A stretch of DNA of 36,597 nucleotides, from NCBI GenBank assembly GCA_034717215.1, contig JAYELD010000084.1, forward strand, positions 1 through 36,597. The letters run 5' to 3'. Under the pieces are notes generated by a model, which saw only the letters and a list, made by a program, of their open reading frames with translations, had not been told where the DNA came from and searched no databases. Below, piece after piece: positions 4,255 to 23,968 of the stretch; within the stretch, counting starts at the first letter, position 1, and the number at the start of each line of letters is the position of its first letter. Made by a program: the position numbers and the translations under genes. The DNA is from Caldisericota bacterium. GTDB lineage: Bacteria > Caldisericota > Caldisericia > Caldisericales > Caldisericaceae.

Positions 4255-5427
4255 TTATCTAATTATATTAAAAAGTAACAGTGTTCTATTTAGTAAGTAC
4301 AAAAACAGCACGATAAACACGATACCCGTCCAGAGTTTTATCGTTGCAATGCGATTTGTGAACCACTCGGTTATTTTTTCTGATGTTGTTCCTCTGTACA
4401 CTATATACACGATGACGACAAGAGGAAGAATAAACATAATATTGTACAGGATGAGGTAAAGGGTTGCTTTTACTTTAAATGCGGGGATGCTGTATATGTA
4501 AACAATAGTTGGCAAGTATGTCTGGCCTGTGCAGGAAAACGATACAATTGAAACAGGAAAAGCAACAAGAAATGAAAAGATAGCAATACCTTGTACTTTA
4601 GGGTTACGCAAAAGGGAATGAATTGTCTTTTTTTCCGTGTGAGAAAGTTGAAGGGCCATATTTTTTAAATGGCCCTTTTTTGCTTTTATGTAGTCTCCGA
4701 TGGTAATAGTTGCAAGAATAAGTGTTATTATGGCTGTCACAAGGTATACCCATTTTGCAATTTCATTAAAGTATTGCCACTCTGATATGATTTTGAAAAG
4801 CCCTATGCCAAGCAAGAAGTATGAGAGGCCAAACCCAAGTATAAAAGATAGCCCAACGGATAGAATATTTTTTTTTGTTTTGCTTCTGAGAAGGAGAAAA
4901 GAGATAAAAAAGACAAGCACGGAAAAAGCACAGGGATTATATCCATCGATAAAACCTGCTCCCAATATGGCAAACACACCAAATTTTTGAAAGAGTTCTA
5001 TGAGGTAATTGTTGCCTCCGCTATTTGTCTGAAGGACATTTTCAATAAATTCAGTTTCTTCTATGTTGTAGCTTTTGATTATTCCTTCTAATTTTTTTGT
5101 GATTTCTTCCCTGGTGAGAAATGTTTCTCCGACAAAAACGGAAGGGGCAATATTTCTCTTATTTTCAGGGACTTTGTACTCTTTATTAAAGTGGGCGAGC
5201 AGTTCCTTGTTTTTATCGTCAGATAAAGAAAATTCTTTAACTTCTATTTCGGGGTAGATCTCTTTTAACGCTTCAAGGTAATGCCGTGTAATTTCGCACT
5301 CCTCGCATCCCGGGGCGGAAAAATATATAATGGGAATCCCCTTTTTTCCGTTTGCTACAAGTGGAAAAGAGAGGAGCAAGATGAATACTAAAACAAGTAC
5401 AAAAGCAAAATGTTTTCTATATGTCAC
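4255..5427 (-). CDS. Thioredoxin-fold/CcdA (DsbD-type) fusion membrane protein
   Basis: A signal peptide or first helix (1-27) precedes an extracytoplasmic thioredoxin/glutaredoxin-like domain with CEEC at 41-44 and VPENKRNIAPSVFVG as the cis-Pro region. A DsbD/CcdA transmembrane domain (about 145-390, six or so helices) follows. Its two expected transmembrane cysteines are visible: NPC at 164-166 and SCTG with Cys299. CcdA/DsbD proteins pass electrons from cytoplasmic thioredoxin across the membrane; here the acceptor thioredoxin fold is N-terminal rather than C-terminal as in DsbD. The start is GTG 5427, overlapping the upstream stop (GTGA), with only a weak ribosome binding site, so translational coupling is likely. 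It is the last gene of the operon 8535 to 4255. The probable job is to reduce the partner proteins encoded upstream. Confidence 0.85.
   Translation of the reverse strand: MTYRKHFAFVLVLVFILLLSFPLVANGKKGIPIIYFSAPGCEECEITRHYLEALKEIYPEIEVKEFSLSDDKNKELLAHFNKEYKVPENKRNIAPSVFVGETFLTREEITKKLEGIIKSYNIEETEFIENVLQTNSGGNNYLIELFQKFGVFAILGAGFIDGYNPCAFSVLVFFISFLLLRSKTKKNILSVGLSFILGFGLSYFLLGIGLFKIISEWQYFNEIAKWVYLVTAIITLILATITIGDYIKAKKGHLKNMALQLSHTEKKTIHSLLRNPKVQGIAIFSFLVAFPVSIVSFSCTGQTYLPTIVYIYSIPAFKVKATLYLILYNIMFILPLVVIVYIVYRGTTSEKITEWFTNRIATIKLWTGIVFIVLFLYLLNRTLLLFNIIR
4651..4681 (+). terminator. Intrinsic terminator for uvrA, inside the convergent CcdA-fusion gene
   Basis: AAGGGCCAT (4651-4659) pairs with ATGGCCCTT (4669-4677) across a 9-base AT-rich loop and is followed by a T-run to 4681. 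The orientation fits transcripts leaving uvrA, which has no terminator of its own before the opposite gene begins. On the minus strand the hairpin is not followed by T residues, so it should not stop the CcdA-fusion transcript. Confidence 0.7.
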
Positions 5428-7451
5428 GGAGTATTGATCTTAATAGATCTTGTGTTTGAGTCCCAATTTACAGTAAAACCAAATGTTTCTGCGACGAAGC
5501 GCAGCGGCACAAATGTCCTGCTTTCTTTAATAATGGCAGGTTGATCAAGCTCAACGGGTGTACCGTCTATATAAGTTGTACTGTTTCCTATCTGCAACTT
5601 GATCTCTTTACCGCTTATCTGTATTGTTACTTCCCTTTTTTCTCCATCCCAGCTTACTTTCCCTCCTAAGAATTCAGTGACAAACCTGACAGGTATAAGG
5701 GTTCTATTTGAATTTTTGTCAATAAATGGAGCAACGTCCATTTTCTTTTGCTCATTGTTTACAAGTGCTGTATAGCTGTCTACTGTAAAAACAACCTCAA
5801 AAAGAACAGGGTCATAAATCACAGTTATTGTTTTTTCTGCGCTCTTTTTTGATAAAGGATAGATGGCTTTTACTTTTATGGGTATGAGGCTGCCTTTGAT
5901 TTCTGGTACAAAAGAGTAGGTAAATTCGCCATTATTTGATACGTTTACTTTTTTATTGTTGATGTAGACATCGGTATTGTATGGTGAAACGTTGCCAATG
6001 ACAGTGATTTCTTTTGTTTTAATTGTGTTCCATTCACCTGGCGATGTGACGCTTAACATTGGCACTGTTGTATCAAGAATTATTGTAATTGTTTGGTATG
6101 TTTTATTCCCCGCAATATCAGTTGCAGAAATGTTGATTTTATTTTCTCCAAGAGCTAACATAACCTCTTTTGCAAATGTCAAATCATCCTTTACATTTAC
6201 AAATCCTTGCATTATAGAGAGTTGTGCAGCTTCGCTTAATGTTCCGTAGATGAGTATTGATTCATCTCCAGTGTAATAGGGGTCATCTCCGGGGAATTCT
6301 ATATTAATTATAGGAATTGTTGTATCTACCTTAAATTCTTCAGATTTTTCTTCCTCGATATAGGTATTTGTTTTACTGTAATAATATAGCGTATGGATGC
6401 CCTCTGGAATTTGGAATGGATCTGCATATTCGGAATAAGTTCCTTCGTCCAATTTATAGAATGTTGTAATTGTTTCTGAAGTGTTTGTTTCCCCGGTGAG
6501 TGTTATTTCAGGTTTTGTTTTGTAATAATTATTGTACCCATCTGGCGAGAGAGGATTTGTTGTAATCTGGGTAAAAACAATATACTGCGACTTTATTTCA
6601 AATTCTGTTTCCACAGGTTCCGGTTCGCTGTCTGTCCATACATTTAATGTGTAGATGCCTTTTTCCGGCGGATTTTTTAAGCCAAAACCTCCATCTATCT
6701 TAATAGTGGTATCTCTGTTTTTATTGATAGAGTATGCAAGAGTGATAGTCATTATGTTCTCCTGGATGGATACATCTCTAATCTCTTGCCCGTTTACCGC
6801 GATGTTATTTTTATGAGGAACGCTTGGAAAAGCAGTTCCCGAGGGAAACTGAATGTATATATTCTGGCCATTATATAAATTTCCTTTTTCTCCTGTGGTG
6901 AAAGTGATGTTGTATGCTCCAATGAGGCTGCTTGCGCTCGGTGTTGCTGCGACTTCAAGATTTTGTATTTGTGTTGATGTGATTTCGTATTCATTTGATT
7001 GCATTTTACCCTGTTTTGTTGTCCAGAGGGTTAAACTATACAATCCCGGTGTTTTAGGGTTCCATATGTTTGCCTGACTCTTTATCTCGACATTTACTGT
7101 TTCCCCTGCTTTAATTGTTATTCCGCCGGGGATTTCAAGATACATTGTATAGGGAATATCACTCATTTTTCCTACACGAGCTGGTTTATAGTTGTTTATA
7201 AGGAAATATTCAAGGTGCCAGTTGTGGGGGCAACTGCAGGGAAGTGTTGTTCCTTCCGGAAATTTAATAAAAATGTCATCTTTTCCGCCTATAAGGTCTG
7301 TGGTTGTGACGAAACTTATGCTATACGCTGCAATGGAATCTCTGAGTGAGGGGTTTACCGTTACGGTAACCAAAGAATCGGCGCGGGCATTCATTGTGAA
7401 GATGGGCATTAAAAAAAGTACACTTATTAAAACTATAATAATTTTTTTCAT
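5424..7451 (-). CDS. Secreted multidomain protein with copper-amine-oxidase-N-like C-terminus
   Basis: A clear signal peptide (1-25, ending NARADS) is followed by two related beta-rich repeats (about 26-165 and 166-290) that share 'P....SLI.AY.I.F.T...L..G..I.I.FP.GT'. Next come an OmpL47-like region (TTFYKLDEGTYSEYADPF, about 325-375) and two Ig-like modules with DTTIPII/DTTVPML linkers. The C-terminal 120 residues match the copper amine oxidase N-terminal-like domain, seen as LIPVRFVTEFLGGKVSWD and FVPLRFVAETFGFTVNWD repeats. That domain in Firmicutes-like bacteria is usually a non-catalytic cell-surface module. The first repeat carries CSCPHNWH (Cys72, Cys74, His76, His79), absent from the second repeat. 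The gene starts one base after the stop of the CGGC protein, whose last codons supply the GGAGGA ribosome binding site. It overlaps the CcdA fusion downstream. A role as redox client or scaffold of its neighbours is inference. Confidence 0.8.
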   Translation of the reverse strand: MKKIIIVLISVLFLMPIFTMNARADSLVTVTVNPSLRDSIAAYSISFVTTTDLIGGKDDIFIKFPEGTTLPCSCPHNWHLEYFLINNYKPARVGKMSDIPYTMYLEIPGGITIKAGETVNVEIKSQANIWNPKTPGLYSLTLWTTKQGKMQSNEYEITSTQIQNLEVAATPSASSLIGAYNITFTTGEKGNLYNGQNIYIQFPSGTAFPSVPHKNNIAVNGQEIRDVSIQENIMTITLAYSINKNRDTTIKIDGGFGLKNPPEKGIYTLNVWTDSEPEPVETEFEIKSQYIVFTQITTNPLSPDGYNNYYKTKPEITLTGETNTSETITTFYKLDEGTYSEYADPFQIPEGIHTLYYYSKTNTYIEEEKSEEFKVDTTIPIINIEFPGDDPYYTGDESILIYGTLSEAAQLSIMQGFVNVKDDLTFAKEVMLALGENKINISATDIAGNKTYQTITIILDTTVPMLSVTSPGEWNTIKTKEITVIGNVSPYNTDVYINNKKVNVSNNGEFTYSFVPEIKGSLIPIKVKAIYPLSKKSAEKTITVIYDPVLFEVVFTVDSYTALVNNEQKKMDVAPFIDKNSNRTLIPVRFVTEFLGGKVSWDGEKREVTIQISGKEIKLQIGNSTTYIDGTPVELDQPAIIKESRTFVPLRFVAETFGFTVNWDSNTRSIKINTP

Positions 7452-7452
7452 T

Positions 7453-8535
7453 CTATTCTCCTCCTAAAAATTCTTTTATATTTGATAATGTTTCTCTTGT
7501 TGGTTCGCACGGTCCCCTGTAAAAAAGGGTAAGATCTTTATCAACAAGGGCAATGTAAGGGGAAGCATCTATTTTTAGTTGTTTTGCAAGAGCTCTATCA
7601 GTGTCTTGTATTATGATAGTCCCTTCAGGGAGCTGGTCTCCTATTTTGTGCGCATCCTCGAGGGTATCGCTAAACGAGAATACAAGAAATTTTGTATTCG
7701 AAGTGTCATATTTTTCAATTTCATTTGCAATTCTTTTAACAGAAGTAACACATCCTCCGCAATGCGGGTTACCGCCTATAAGGATAAGCTTGTAATCTTT
7801 TAGCTGGCTCAGGTCAACAGTTTCTCCGTTAATATCGTCTGTTTCTATTGACTCAATCTTTATACCTTTTTCTGCAAATGTGAATTCATCTTTTGAAATT
7901 TTATCATACTCAGTTACTCCATATTTTTCTATATAAAAAAGGCTCATCGCCTCTTTTACTTTATTTTTTATGAGCAGTGCCGTGTTGCTGTCATTTGTAT
8001 AAACACCATCGACTTTAAGAATGAATTGATTAGCACTTTTTCCCTCAAATGCATCAAAAAATTTATCAAAATCTATACCTAACGTGAAATATGTTGGCTT
8101 GAACGGTTTTAACCCAAGCACATTAAGCTCATCGTCTATAATGAGCAGCATATATGCTTTTTGTGAAATTTTTGAAGATTTTTCGCTGTCAGGATTATCA
8201 ATGACTATAATGGCCTCTTTTGCTACTATTTCTCCGTCTTTTTCTAGGTCTTCTACCGCGAAGCTGTCTGCGATGCGGAGCGCATTTGAAAGCGCACGCG
8301 GATTGGATACACCCGGGATATACCCGAATATTTCTTCTCGCGCTTCATCTTTTGAAATAGTCTTTGTGTATTGCGAAAAACTATTTGTTTTTAGAATCAA
8401 AACTGTAATAATTATTGCTGCCACAATTATTGCGGAAACAATAATAATGGGGCGAATATTACTTTTATTTAAAGTTTTTTTGCTAACCTTTGTCTTTTTT
8501 CTCTCTTTTTTTCTTCCATCTCTTGCTTTACTCAT
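7453..8535 (-). CDS. Membrane-anchored TlpA-like thioredoxin-fold protein with RnfG/FMN_bind-like middle domain
   Basis: A very basic cytoplasmic N-terminus (1-28) and one transmembrane helix (about 27-48) anchor an extracytoplasmic region. The C-terminal domain (about 230-360) has NPHCGGC with Cys259/Cys262, a DASPYI cis-Pro at 326 and the alternating strands of TlpA/AhpC-type thioredoxin folds. The middle (about 60-205), including FDAFEGKSAN and KVDGVYTNDSNTALLI, has the layout of FMN_bind domains of RnfG/NosR-type proteins. It lacks the canonical SGAT flavinylation motif, so this part is tentative. AGAGGTGATAG precedes ATG 8535. It is the first gene of a coupled three-gene set with the secreted CSCPH protein and the CcdA fusion, which implies transmembrane thiol transfer. 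It may share the promoter of the kinase gene upstream, 59 bp away. Confidence 0.75.
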   Translation of the reverse strand: MSKARDGRKKERKKTKVSKKTLNKSNIRPIIIVSAIIVAAIIITVLILKTNSFSQYTKTISKDEAREEIFGYIPGVSNPRALSNALRIADSFAVEDLEKDGEIVAKEAIIVIDNPDSEKSSKISQKAYMLLIIDDELNVLGLKPFKPTYFTLGIDFDKFFDAFEGKSANQFILKVDGVYTNDSNTALLIKNKVKEAMSLFYIEKYGVTEYDKISKDEFTFAEKGIKIESIETDDINGETVDLSQLKDYKLILIGGNPHCGGCVTSVKRIANEIEKYDTSNTKFLVFSFSDTLEDAHKIGDQLPEGTIIIQDTDRALAKQLKIDASPYIALVDKDLTLFYRGPCEPTRETLSNIKEFLGGE

Positions 8536-8594: not shown

Positions 8595-9083
8595 TTACAT
8601 TTTATAGCCAAATTTTCTTAGGAGTTCTTTTCTTTTTTTAATATCTTCCTCTGTTTCAATACCTTTAGGACTGATACCATCAACAACGCCCAAAATCGCT
8701 CTTCCCTGCTCTGTTTCTCCTATGACTACTTCCAGCGGGTTAGAACTGGCAACGTATATGCAACAGACTTCCTGTATATTTTTTATTGCATTTAGCACAT
8801 TAATCGGGTACGCATCTTTTAAAAAAATGATAAAGACATGACCTGCGCCTATTTTATATGCGTTTTTTTTGGCAAGTTCTATAAGGTTTTTATCATTTCC
8901 CGCCCATCTGATCAGTGCATCACCTGACGCTTCTACAAAACCTATGCCAAATTTAATTGTTGGCGTGGACGCGATAAGTGCTTCATATAAATCTTCTACT
9001 GATTTTATAAAATGCGTTTGGCCAATGATTGTATTAAGGTCTTCGGGCTTGTCAACTTTTATAATTTTAATCTTTAAATCCAT
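8595..9083 (-). CDS. Adenosine-specific kinase (AK_N family, PF04008-like)
   Basis: The 162-residue product shows the conserved pattern of the small 'adenosine specific kinase' family: [45 protein letters not shown], a [20 protein letters not shown] stretch, and [15 protein letters not shown] near the end. The family is known mainly from archaea and some thermophilic bacteria; its name comes from structural work and the physiological reaction is not firmly settled. The start is ATG 9083 with GGAGG five bases upstream; an upstream in-frame TTG would overlap that ribosome binding site. A consensus promoter lies at 9112-9139. The downstream thiol-redox genes are 59 bp away on the same strand and could be cotranscribed. 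Purine nucleoside salvage would fit the 5'-nucleotidase and the nucleoside ABC transporter elsewhere in the window. Confidence 0.85.
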
Positions 9084-9111
9084 ATATCCCTCCAAGCAAT
9101 TAACTTTTAAT

Positions 9112-19624: not shown

Positions 19625-21088
19625 TTAAAATTCTTTAAACATTTCAACCATTACTTCTCTTTTTTCTCCATCCCAACTTACTTTTGCGCCAAGATTTTCT
19701 GAAATAAATCTGACAGGGACGAATGTTCTTGAATCTTTTATAAACGGGGAAGTATCCATTTGAATTCCAGTGCCGTTTTTGAAAAGCGTAGTGCTATCTA
19801 TAACAAATTTAATAGAAATGTATTTAAGAAAAGGACCTAAAAAAACAGTGTCACCAAACAACGGGACAAAATCTTGTTGTTTCATAGTAAGTGCAATAGA
19901 GCTTTCTTTGCCACTATTTATTTTTATATTTGCAATTATTTCCTCTTGTGGCACTGGTTTTGAAGAGAACGTCCAGTCCCCCATTGAAAATAATGGAAAT
20001 CTAAATAGTATAGCTCCTTCCCCGTATTGAAAGGCATAAAAAAGTTCTTTTTCAGTTTCTTCACTGCTTATATTGAAAGGATTTACGGCAGTATAAACAG
20101 GAATATTTGTAAGATCTGATTTGAGGGTTTTGATTACAAGCGTGGCGTAGCTTGAGTTTTCTTGTAGTGATGAGAGATACACCATTGGTGCGATAAAATC
20201 AAATCCTGAAAAAGTAGTTGAAAGCTGGCCAAAATTTACAACCTGGTAAGTCAGCGAGTCAGAAATTTTTTCTGCCTTTTCTGTTGTCTTGTACCTGAAG
20301 CCTCTTGCAACCATAAAAGCGCCAACATTAATGTTTGGCTGAATTGATTTTATATACTCCTTTACAATGGAAGCTTCATCTTTTACGAGGTTATTTCTTA
20401 AATTTATCCACCTTACTACATCTTCGTCTTCCTGTTCATATGCTTCAAACAGACTTTTCCAATCAGCAGGATTTACAAAAGTTTTGTATGCAATGTTTTT
20501 TACTTTGTTTGTATCTATACCATTTTCTTGTGCATATTGCATAGAAGCATTAGAAAAATCATAACTTCCGTTAGGAAATCTAATATAATCAAGAGATACT
20601 CCGTCGATGTCGTATTGCAACAATTCATCTAAAAAATGTTTTATGTAGTCCAGATAGACGCTGCTTAAAAGTGATACATAGTAATTGTTTTTTGAGCCGT
20701 TTATATGTTGCATCAATTCTTCTTGATGAAGAAAACCAAAATTTTTGTCCATAAAAACTGGAAAATAAGTAAAAACTTTGATGTCATTATAGTGCGCTTC
20801 ATTGATTAGTGTTCCTAAAATATCGCTTTCTACCGGGAGAAATTCGCTTTTATAAAATACTCTGCCCTGTGGGTTTTTGACGAGGAGAAAAATTGTATTA
20901 TAACCGTATTCTTTGAGTGTCAGGACAACCTCTTTTGCCCCGAGTTTTTCGATGTCTTCTCCACGAACACAGATTCCTTTCATTTTTTGCTCAGGGGTGC
21001 TATTGGCTTTCGCAATATAAATTGTTTGAAAAACGAGAAACAAAATAAGTATTAGTATGGATAAACGTTTTAATCGATTGCAATTCAT
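19625..21088 (-). CDS. Secreted GHL10-type glycosyl hydrolase-like protein with C-terminal copper-amine-oxidase-N-like repeat
   Basis: The product is 487 residues. A signal peptide (about 1-28, ending AKANS) precedes a TIM-barrel of the glycosyl hydrolase-like 10 family: [48 protein letters not shown] (the diagnostic barrel strand with acidic residues), [10 protein letters not shown]. The last 60 residues hold a shortened copper-amine-oxidase-N-like unit ([31 protein letters not shown]). This is nearly the same wording as in the surface protein at 5424-7451. GHL10 proteins are thought to act on cell-wall or surface polysaccharides; the substrate is unknown. ATG 21088 overlaps the gatB stop (ATGA), making it the last gene of the operon that begins at 27382. 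Confidence 0.8.
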
Positions 21089-22530
21089 TGCTTCATCTTG
21101 TTAAGTGCTTCCGTAAGGAGTTTGTTTGCAATTTGAGGATTTGCTTTTCCTTTTGTTTTTTTCATTACTTGTCCTGCAAGGAAGCCAAGTATCTGGGTTT
21201 TTCCAGCGAGGTAACGCGAAACAGCTTCTGAGTTTTCTCTCAGGACTTGTTTCACAATTTCTTTTATTTTATTTTCGTCTGTTATTTGGATTAATCCCTT
21301 TTCTTCTACAATCTTTTTTGGAGATTTTCCTGTTTTTAGCGATTCGGCTATGATTTCTTTTGCTATATTTTTTGAAATTATGCCTTTTTCCAAAAGTGAA
21401 AAAAATTCTATGAATTTTTTCTTGTCGAAACCAATTTCGCTTATTGTTTTTTCTGTTTCATTGAGAAATTTCATGATGCTCCCCATAAGAAAATTTGCAA
21501 CTTCTTTCGGCTTGCCTGTCGCTTTTGCAATTGATTCAAAATAATCTGCGAGTTCATTGGATGATGCGATTTCATAAGCATAAGTATTGCTTAATGAATA
21601 TTGTTTGATGAACCGTTCTTCTTTTTGTACAGGAAGTTCAGGTAAACTGTTTTTTATATCTTCTATAAATGTTTCATTTAAAAGAAGCGGTGGAAGGTCT
21701 GGTTCGGGAAAGTATCTGTAATCGTTTAGTTCTTCTTTGGTTCTCATTGATTTTGTTATCCCTGTTTTTTCGTCAAAATGTCTTGTTTCATGAACAGTTT
21801 TTTCTCCATTTTTAAGCATTTCTGTCTGCCTTTTAATTTCATATTCAAGCGCTTTTCGTATGCTACGGAATGAATTGAGATTTTTAATTTCCACTTTTGT
21901 GCCCATTGTATTGCTTTTTGAGAGGGACACGTTAACATCACATCGCAGAGCTCCTTTTTCCATATCTCCGCTTGAAACGCCCAAATATCGCACTGTTTTT
22001 CTGAGAAGCACAAGAAAATGATATGCTTCTTCAGCTGTTTCAATATCAGGATATGTAACAATTTCCATTAAAGGTACGCCGGACCTGTTAAAATCAATAT
22101 AAGAATATGTGGATTCTGTAATATCGTCTGTATGGATCGATTTTCCAGAGTCTTCTTCTATATGCCCTCTCTGGATACTAATTTTCTTTTTTCCTTTTTC
22201 TGTCTTTATTTCAAGGAAGCCTTCACTTGCAATTGGGATTGTATACTGGGTGATCTGATATCCTTTTGGCAAATCCGGGTAGAAATAGTTTTTTCTGTAA
22301 AAAGTTGATTCTTTGTTTATTTTCATATTTAGGGCAAGTCCCAATTTTATACCGTATTCAATGGCTTTTTCATTTAGAACGGGAAGTGCACCCGGGAGAC
22401 CCAAACAGACAGGGCAGATATGCGTATTAGGTTTTTCGCCAAACTGTGTAGAACATCCACAAAACAATTTTGTTTTTGTGTCAAGCTGTATGTGTATTTC
22501 AAGGCCTATTGTTGGTTTATATTCGTTCAT
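21085..22530 (-). CDS. gatB: Aspartyl/glutamyl-tRNA amidotransferase subunit B
   Basis: GatB is the kinase and amidotransferase subunit that activates misacylated Glu-tRNA(Gln) or Asp-tRNA(Asn) and transfers ammonia delivered by GatA. Visible: [19 protein letters not shown], zinc site CGCSTQFG...[40 protein letters not shown] and the C-terminal YqeY-like tail ([20 protein letters not shown]). From ATG 22530 the length is 481, normal for the family. An upstream in-frame ATG 22560 overlaps the gatA stop and would add ten untypical residues. Order gatC-gatA-gatB, all on the minus strand, inside one operon with ligA. Confidence 0.97.
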
Positions 22531-22552
22531 TTTTTCTTCTCTCTCATGCCAC

Positions 22553-23968
22553 TTATCCATTTTCTACAGCATATGCAATTTGCAAGAGCTCTTTTTCCTT
22601 GAACCAGCTTCCTATTAGCTGCATTCCAATGGGAAGTCCGTTTTTATCATTTCCGTGGGGGACAGAGATTGCAGGTAGTCCTGCAAGGTTTACAGGTATT
22701 GTAAAAATATCACTCATATACATTTCAAGGGGGTTTTTCTTCTCCCCCAATTTGAAGGCTGTAGTAGCTGTTGTGGGAAGAAGTAACGTATCTACTGCTT
22801 CAAATGCTTTTTCAAATTCATTTGCAAGAATTTTTCTTACTTTTGAAGCTTTTAAGTAATATGCATCATAATATCCTGCAGATAGTGCAAATGTGCCGAT
22901 AAGAATCCTCCTTTTTACTTCTTCTCCAAATCCTTCTGTGCGTGTCAATTCGTATGTGCTTGTAAGATTCTTTCCTTGAACAGTTAATCCGTATCGTACT
23001 CCATCAAAACGGCTAAGGTTAGATGAGGCTTCTGACGGAGCAATAATGTAGTACGCGGGAAGTGCATATTTTAGATGCGCAATGGATATTTCTGTTATGG
23101 TAGCACCAAGTTTAACGAGAGTGCTTATTGTTTTTTTGAGTTCTTCTTTTATTTCATCCTGTATATCAAAATCCATTACTTCTTTTATTATGCCAATTCT
23201 TTTACCTTTTATTTCTTTTCCTAAAAGTTTTGTATAGTCTTCTTTTTTAATATTGACAGATGTTTCGTCATGCGGATCAAATCCTGCAATTGTGTTTAAC
23301 ATTATGGCACAGTCTTTTACATTTCTTGTAAGAGGGCCAATTTGATCAAGCGATGATGAAAAAGCAATAAGGCCGTACCTTGAAACAAGCCCGTATGTTG
23401 GCTTTAACCCTACAATACCACAAAATGCGGCAGGTTCTCTTACTGAACCCCCAGTATCGGATCCAAGTGCTGCTAATGCTTCTTCGCTTTTTACCGAAGA
23501 TGCAGAACCTCCGGAAGACCCACCGGGAACGTAATCATAATTTACGGGGTTGTGCGTGGGGAAAAAAGACGAATTTTCATTTGAGGAGCCCATTGCAAAC
23601 TCATCCATATTCGTTTTGCCTATAATGATAGCATTTTCTTCTTTTAATTTTTTAACAATTGTCGCGTTGTACGGAGATATATACCCTTTTAATATTTGTG
23701 ATCCTGCTGTTGTTTCGCAGTTCTTTACGTTTATATTATCTTTTACGGCAACAGGCACACCGAAGAGAAGCCCCTTTTTTTCGTTCATTTTATCAAGTTT
23801 TTCTGCTTGTTCCAGTGCTTTTTCTATATCCAAATGGATAAATGCTTTAATATTTTTTTCTTTTTCATAAATATTTTTAGCATAATTTTCAATTACTTCT
23901 CTTGTAGTGATTTCTTTATTCTTAAGCTTGTTGATAAGGTTGGATATTGGCAAGCTGGTAATTGTCAT
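22553..23968 (-). CDS. gatA: Aspartyl/glutamyl-tRNA amidotransferase subunit A
   Basis: This is the glutaminase subunit of GatCAB, an amidase-signature enzyme. The Ser-cisSer-Lys triad is visible: Lys76 in VAVKDNI, Ser151 in GGSSGGSAS and nucleophile Ser175 in [10 protein letters not shown]. The product is 471 residues from ATG 23968, with AGGTGA five bases upstream and one base after the gatC stop. A GTG nine bases further upstream overlaps gatC and is less likely. The C-terminus ([26 protein letters not shown]) is complete. Confidence 0.97.

Follow-up and report, generated by a model that had tools for sequence, protein, structure and literature searches.

A conserved three-gene operon of Caldisericaceae encodes a putative extracytoplasmic thiol-reducing relay together with its likely secreted client

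The proteins on which extracytoplasmic reducing relays act are as a rule identified singly. Three reverse-strand genes in a 36,597-nucleotide stretch of Caldisericota DNA (hereafter the window; one contig of a 1.49-Mb draft genome labelled G000) raise the question of whether such a relay and its target can be encoded side by side. The genes encode, in order of translation, a membrane-anchored TlpA/ResA-like thioredoxin (here TLPA), a secreted immunoglobulin (Ig)-like stalk protein (SURF) and a CcdA-like membrane conduit (Table 1). Judging from sequence comparisons and structure models, we lean towards the view that this operon encodes an extracytoplasmic thiol-reducing relay and a secreted client whose dicysteine it would keep reduced. 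TLPA and SURF are separated by a single nucleotide, and SURF and the CcdA-like gene overlap by four (GTGA), both values being exact. Gene starts were taken from the longest open reading frames, so that some intergenic spacings are uncertain; across 16 operon copies the spacing between TLPA and SURF ranges from -8 to 56 nt. An earlier note on this DNA had given the gene positions, the one-base gap, the four-nucleotide overlap, the CGGC motif at TLPA residues 259-262 and CEEC 41-44, Cys166 and Cys299 of the conduit, all of which are exact in the sequence, while it overlooked the dicysteine C72-S-C74 of the middle protein.

Is the arrangement more than a local coincidence? The earlier note had named separation of the three genes in relatives as the observation that would speak against it. 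We compared the Caldisericaceae (f1, the family of the window) with Cryosericum (f2) and a third family (f3). Besides the window, all 15 other Caldisericaceae genomes with contigs spanning the locus carry TLPA, SURF and the CcdA-like gene on one strand and in one order, in nine genera altogether; in three of these 15, one outer gene of the triplet is truncated by the contig end. The contig of genome G014 ends inside the CcdA-like gene, and G013 gave no CcdA-like match. The flanks vary among genera: downstream we find UvrA, glutamate-dehydrogenase-like, radical-SAM-like and other genes (named partly by eye from sequence), and upstream, nine genomes have an adenosine-specific kinase gene while the others have different genes. 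As the triplet stays constant while its flanks change, its linkage goes beyond chance, which supports the three genes as a conserved unit; the objection foreseen in the earlier note thus does not hold.

TLPA starts with a Lys/Arg-rich stretch and a single membrane helix, followed by two domains that hydropathy places outside the cytoplasm. The C-terminal domain is a TlpA/ResA-type thioredoxin fold as judged from Pfam (Redoxin PF08534 and PF00578 both exceed their cut-offs), a profile search of the Protein Data Bank (PDB), an AlphaFold2 model with a pLDDT of 86 and Foldseek, with ResA as the top fold match. C259, C262 and P326 are invariant in an alignment of 25 sequences from the three families. 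The active site reads CG[GSAT]C throughout and not CxPC; a proline at this position is typical of TlpA/ResA proteins, not defining, and TLPA combines their thioredoxin fold, CxxC, conserved proline loop, membrane anchor and outside location. The ResA match, and the classical pairing of CcdA with ResA, could mean that TLPA acts as the ResA of cytochrome c maturation system II, with the CcdA-like protein as its donor. We consider this extremely improbable: the client has no CxxCH, and ResB (PF05140) was unmatched in 31 genomes of the class, where the positive controls worked. Neither DsbB nor VKOR was detected in the same 31 genomes, again with working positive controls; the lack of these matches argues against cytochrome c maturation, and an oxidizing pathway of DsbB or VKOR type was rejected on this ground.

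The N-terminal domain of TLPA is of another type. Foldseek with the whole model matched the thioredoxin half only, and the N-terminal domain was identified through profile comparison: across 124 columns it aligns with RnfG-type FMN_bind proteins from the same bacterial class, with an hhalign probability of 84% (P 7e-6), compared with 0.2-0.3% for three control alignments. The flavinylation motif [S/T]GA[S/T], which is the attachment site of flavin mononucleotide (FMN) (PMC8238504), is absent from this domain in the f1, f2 and f3 alignment. By its profile, the domain is homologous to RnfG/FMN_bind and has lost the motif; we do not claim that it binds FMN.

The CcdA-like protein would provide the step through the membrane. 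Hydropathy indicates a signal or anchor helix, a glutaredoxin (Grx)-like domain and a core with roughly six helices, and the charge pattern places the Grx-like domain outside. CEEC, C166 and C299 are invariant in 24 sequences over the three families, the latter two lying inside predicted helices or at their margins. The earlier note had taken TLPA and this protein for a DsbD/CcdA-TlpA redox pair. Both outer proteins are indeed built as expected for a thiol relay outside the cytoplasm, but the Pfam model DsbD_TM (PF02683) did not match the conduit at E<1, and a genome search with PF02683 finds a separate canonical CcdA only. The alignment with the canonical CcdA profile runs end to end over 205 columns with both cysteines in register and is weak (probability 8.6%, E 0.004); a PDB search with the profile of the CcdA-like protein matched the Grx domain alone. 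We therefore term the protein CcdA-like and do not count it as a member of the Pfam family. Its core has the DsbD/CcdA layout, one redox cysteine each in helices 1 and 4, and is predicted to transfer electrons across the membrane. Canonical CcdA shares the six-helix core and the two cysteine positions but has no Grx-like domain, carries SPCV and TPCVG instead of NPCA and SCTGQTYLPT, and occupies another gene context, directly before rbfA-like and DHH-type phosphoesterase-like genes in G000 (C47, L229:7933-8613) and in the Caldisericum genome G010 (L231:6479-7393), where no thioredoxin-like gene was seen nearby.

The closest named relatives of the CcdA-like protein (88-93% identity) come from Caldiserica/Caldisericota metagenome genomes, followed by Caldisericaceae and Caldisericum. 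As judged only from a profile search, clustering and inspection by eye, no SURF neighbour occurs beside distant Grx-CcdA-like fusions (Chloroflexi, Poribacteria, WOR-3, Omnitrophota and others), whose gene contexts vary and include thioredoxins, DUF1573-like proteins and others. As a separate observation, fusion relatives in several other phyla (L142, L183, L184 and others) adjoin or carry an apparent DUF1573 domain, as seen by eye.

What would such a relay reduce? SURF contains exactly two cysteines, C72 and C74, in one loop of its first Ig-like domain. All 16/16 operon copies, some with as little as ~38% identity, retain the pair in the form CxC or CxxC. Cryosericum orthologues carry CxxC at the same position and are encoded ~12 kb from the relay where both share a contig (G022, G026, G034). 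SURF is one of a large family of proteins, and the genome of the window alone contains 30 stretches that match it; in a sample of 59 aligned rows of repeats taken from paralogues and relatives, some of which duplicate the same gene, a cysteine pair at this site occurs only in SURF orthologues. The C-terminal stalk domain scores well above its cut-off (PF07833, 149.5 bits against 24.2). A PDB sequence search with the N-terminus gave nothing significant. We found no Pfam match to a catalytic copper domain, a methionine sulphoxide reductase (Msr) domain or any other catalytic domain. The earlier note described SURF as a surface protein: it is secreted, as judged from a signal sequence recognized by hydropathy, but we found no anchor in it, and its placement at the surface is presumptive. 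For this bacterial group, a diderm-like envelope with doubtful lipopolysaccharide has been described (PMC7203096).

The dicysteine might serve as a metal site, in which case the relay would reduce it so that Zn, Fe or Cu can bind, and the client would need the metal and not the thiols. Six operon copies indeed read CxxC-x4-CxxC, the second CxxC following the first, and most others have CxC with a nearby His, giving up to four ligands; moreover, in Bradyrhizobium TlpA reduces the copper-site cysteine pairs of ScoI and CoxB before metallation (PMC6696091). We nevertheless judge this reading unlikely, since the first cysteine pair alone is invariant and the additional ligands are variable or absent (G011, Cryosericum copies), and since Cu_amine_oxidN1 is a stalk domain that Pfam shows here without a catalytic copper domain. 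Copper metallation deduced from the name of the stalk domain was rejected for the latter reason. Where the earlier note proposed that the system reduces or metallates the middle protein, reduction is reasonable, if still indirectly supported, given the conserved linkage, the relay-like build of the outer proteins and the invariant dicysteine, while metallation finds no direct support, no more than two of the possible ligands being invariant.

Under the reducing-relay reading, cytoplasmic thioredoxin would reduce the Cys166/Cys299 pair in the membrane, and this pair would in turn reduce CEEC of the fused, outside-facing Grx-like domain. CEEC would then reduce CGGC of membrane-anchored TLPA, and CGGC would keep Cys72/Cys74 of SURF reduced, the reduced dicysteine presumably being the functional state of SURF. 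The comparisons themselves show the conserved linkage of the genes, an anatomy that fits the required topology, the invariance of the cysteine sites, the lack of the pair in the sampled paralogues and the occurrence of cysteine-bearing clients together with the relay. We infer the direction of electron flow, each transfer, the dicysteine as substrate and the role of the reduced client by analogy with the established DsbD/CcdA-TlpA scheme.

A second secreted protein, ~540 residues long, may be tied to the same relay; it shares the stalk domain of SURF and also has a beta-propeller-like part and a HYDIN-like Ig domain. The genes for the TLPA-like and CcdA-like proteins are adjacent in Cryosericum, where the gene for this protein directly follows the CcdA-like one (L047-L051, L055). 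In the single-contig genome G010, which is of the same genus as metagenome-assembled genomes named Caldisericum exile, it lies directly before TLPA (L042:5194-6837), and in the genome of the window it is unlinked to the relay (G000:C20:27775-29388). Its cysteine pair is conserved in 19/19 sequences covering the site. Beyond f1 and f2 no full-length propeller orthologue was found, and the full-length cysteine-bearing clients occurred, SURF and propeller protein alike, only in these two families, both of which have the relay. A third large secreted protein, with 13-24 cysteines including CxC, is encoded downstream of the propeller gene in Cryosericum (L121:10301-14452, L122:10421-14611, L047:2-3679) and also within a surface-protein cluster in the genome of the window (L233:13730-16000, G000:C148). 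The HYDIN-like Ig domain of the propeller protein may be compared with the DUF1573-like context of Grx-CcdA relatives elsewhere.

These linkages bear on how exclusive the relay is. TLPA and the CcdA-like protein could serve many secreted thiols, with SURF co-transcribed for another reason and its dicysteine not a specific substrate. In f3 the two relay genes stand side by side without SURF, in the f2 and f3 genomes tested no canonical CcdA was found, so the relay must do all such work there, and in f2 other cysteine-containing stalk proteins are linked. However, SURF stays between the relay genes throughout f1 while the flanks change, and its only invariant cysteines are missing from the sampled paralogues; we therefore regard a purely general role as improbable. 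The word dedicated, used for SURF in the earlier note, needs qualifying given the second cysteine-pair protein linked in Cryosericum and one Caldisericum genome and the f3 relay that occurs without either client.

Several observations weigh against the preferred reading of a relay keeping SURF reduced. The relay pair of f3 lacks both cysteine clients and therefore has at least one other job there. Canonical CcdA is encoded elsewhere in 12/12 f1 genomes tested (one a weak partial match), so that labour may be divided between the two conduits. The family-level co-distribution of clients and relay represents few independent events. Finally, we saw no correlation between the TLPA site type (CGGC versus CGSC/CGAC) and the client motif (CxC versus CxxC).

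The client could also be a redox-active terminal part, its dicysteine handing electrons to a sulphur compound or another acceptor outside the cell. The exposed CxC/CxxC loop, the RnfG-like ancestry of the TLPA N-terminal domain and the description of Caldisericum as respiring sulphur compounds (PMC7203096) would be compatible with this, whereas SURF has no catalytic domain, the flavinylation motif of TLPA is lost, and no acceptor or terminal enzyme is linked, which makes it very unlikely in our judgement. Similarly remote is a thiol-based extracellular electron line in which an Rnf-derived thioredoxin hybrid, fed by the Grx-CcdA-like protein, would charge exposed dicysteine loops on SURF and the propeller protein, both of which would then be redox-active outer parts of the cell, towards sulphur compounds for example, and not passive clients.

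Table 1 Features of the operon and its surroundings (positions in the window)
Feature	Position	Strand	Basis
TLPA, membrane-anchored RnfG-like and TlpA/ResA-like protein, 360 aa	7453..8535	-	ORF, Pfam, alignment, AlphaFold2, Foldseek, profile comparison, hydropathy
TLPA membrane anchor, residues 30-48	8392..8448	-	hydropathy
TLPA RnfG/FMN_bind-like domain, residues ~62-214, without [S/T]GA[S/T]	7894..8352	-	hhalign, AlphaFold2
TLPA thioredoxin-fold domain, residues ~227-354	7474..7857	-	PF08534/PF00578; ResA fold matches
TLPA active site CGGC, residues 259-262	7750..7761	-	sequence; C259 and C262 invariant in 25 sequences
AGGAGG ribosome-binding site of SURF, within TLPA 3' end	7460..7465	-	sequence
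SURF, secreted Ig-like/stalk protein, 675 aa, likely client	5424..7451	-	ORF, Pfam, cysteine alignment, AlphaFold2
SURF Ig-like domain 1, residues ~27-159	6975..7373	-	AlphaFold2 pLDDT 91; beta-sandwich fold matches
SURF dicysteine C72-S-C74	7230..7238	-	invariant in 16/16 operon copies and f2 orthologues
SURF Ig-like domain 2, residues ~160-289, without cysteine	6585..6974	-	AlphaFold2, fold matches
SURF Glucodextran_B-type domain, residues 384-460	6072..6302	-	PF09136 E 4e-15, two stretches
SURF Cu_amine_oxidN1 stalk domain, residues 564-672	5436..5762	-	PF07833 E 3.7e-44
CcdA-like conduit with fused Grx-like domain, 390 aa, GTG start	4255..5427	-	ORF, Pfam, alignment, profile comparison, hydropathy
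Grx-like domain, residues 33-103	5119..5331	-	PF00462 E 7e-4, just under cut-off; PDB glutaredoxins/thioredoxins by profile
CEEC site, residues 41-44	5296..5307	-	both Cys invariant in 24 sequences
Cys166, core helix 1 (NPCA)	4930..4932	-	invariant; aligned with CcdA SPCV
Cys299, core helix 4 (SCTGQTYLPT)	4531..4533	-	invariant; aligned with CcdA TPCVG
Adenosine-specific kinase gene, possibly first in transcript; outside proposed mechanism	8595..9095	-	PF04008; adjacent in nine genomes; promoter-like site upstream

The adenosine-specific kinase gene lies 59 nt upstream of TLPA on the same strand and is preceded by a promoter-like site (9139-9112, 11/12 match), so the transcript may start one gene earlier, at the kinase. 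In the promoter and terminator scan, promoter-like sites were overall no commoner than in shuffled sequence, and no minus-strand terminator-like site was found within the operon. The nine genomes in which the kinase neighbours TLPA are all Caldisericaceae. Elsewhere in the window, positions 19625-21088 (-) encode a secreted, glycosyl-hydrolase-like protein that carries a stalk domain (PF02638, PF07833), and the start of its gene overlaps the end of a gatB-like gene (21085-22560, -; named by eye) by 4 nt; by this overlap it looks translationally coupled to tRNA amidotransferase genes. In G009, the CcdA-like gene has a similar glycosyl-hydrolase-like gene as its convergent neighbour.

How does the operon compare with known systems? 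The earlier note held that the arrangement is not a standard one, yet a three-gene operon of this kind is known from Streptococcus pneumoniae, where CcdA1 and the TlpA-like thioredoxin lipoprotein Etrx1 reduce the operon-encoded surface protein MsrAB2 (PMC3914529), which sets a precedent for the proposed relay. Both operons combine a CcdA-type conduit, a membrane-bound outside TlpA-like thioredoxin and a surface partner. The pneumococcal client is a methionine sulphoxide reductase, whereas the client here is an Ig-like stalk protein without an Msr domain, and a Grx-like fusion on the conduit and an RnfG-like fusion on the thioredoxin are added. New with respect to the pneumococcal operon are therefore the Ig/stalk client with a dicysteine loop and no recognized enzyme domain, the Grx fusion and the RnfG-like fusion. 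In Bradyrhizobium (TlpA-ScoI-CoxB), membrane-anchored TlpA likewise reduces cysteine pairs of secreted targets, but these are oxidase copper proteins that do not share a three-gene operon with it (PMC6696091), and there is no oxidase context here. Flavinylation clusters with DsbD, thioredoxin-like, DUF4266 and DUF3570 proteins (PMC8238504) resemble the operon in tying thiol to flavin relays; in contrast, the operon proteins have no Pfam match to DUF4266 or DUF3570, the RnfG-like domain lacks the flavinylation motif, and the CxC belongs to one loop within a large Ig-like protein. We found no published description of this operon in the literature searched, a search that left most subscription journals aside.

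Taken together, a relay and its likely target are found here as one translated unit with exact residues, in the poorly studied, heat-loving Caldisericaceae. The fusion of an RnfG-like domain to a TlpA-type thioredoxin links two branches of extracytoplasmic electron transfer, that of flavins and that of thiols, in one protein. The operon makes it testable whether, and for what reason, a CcdA-type relay may serve to keep reduced a secreted protein that is not an enzyme.
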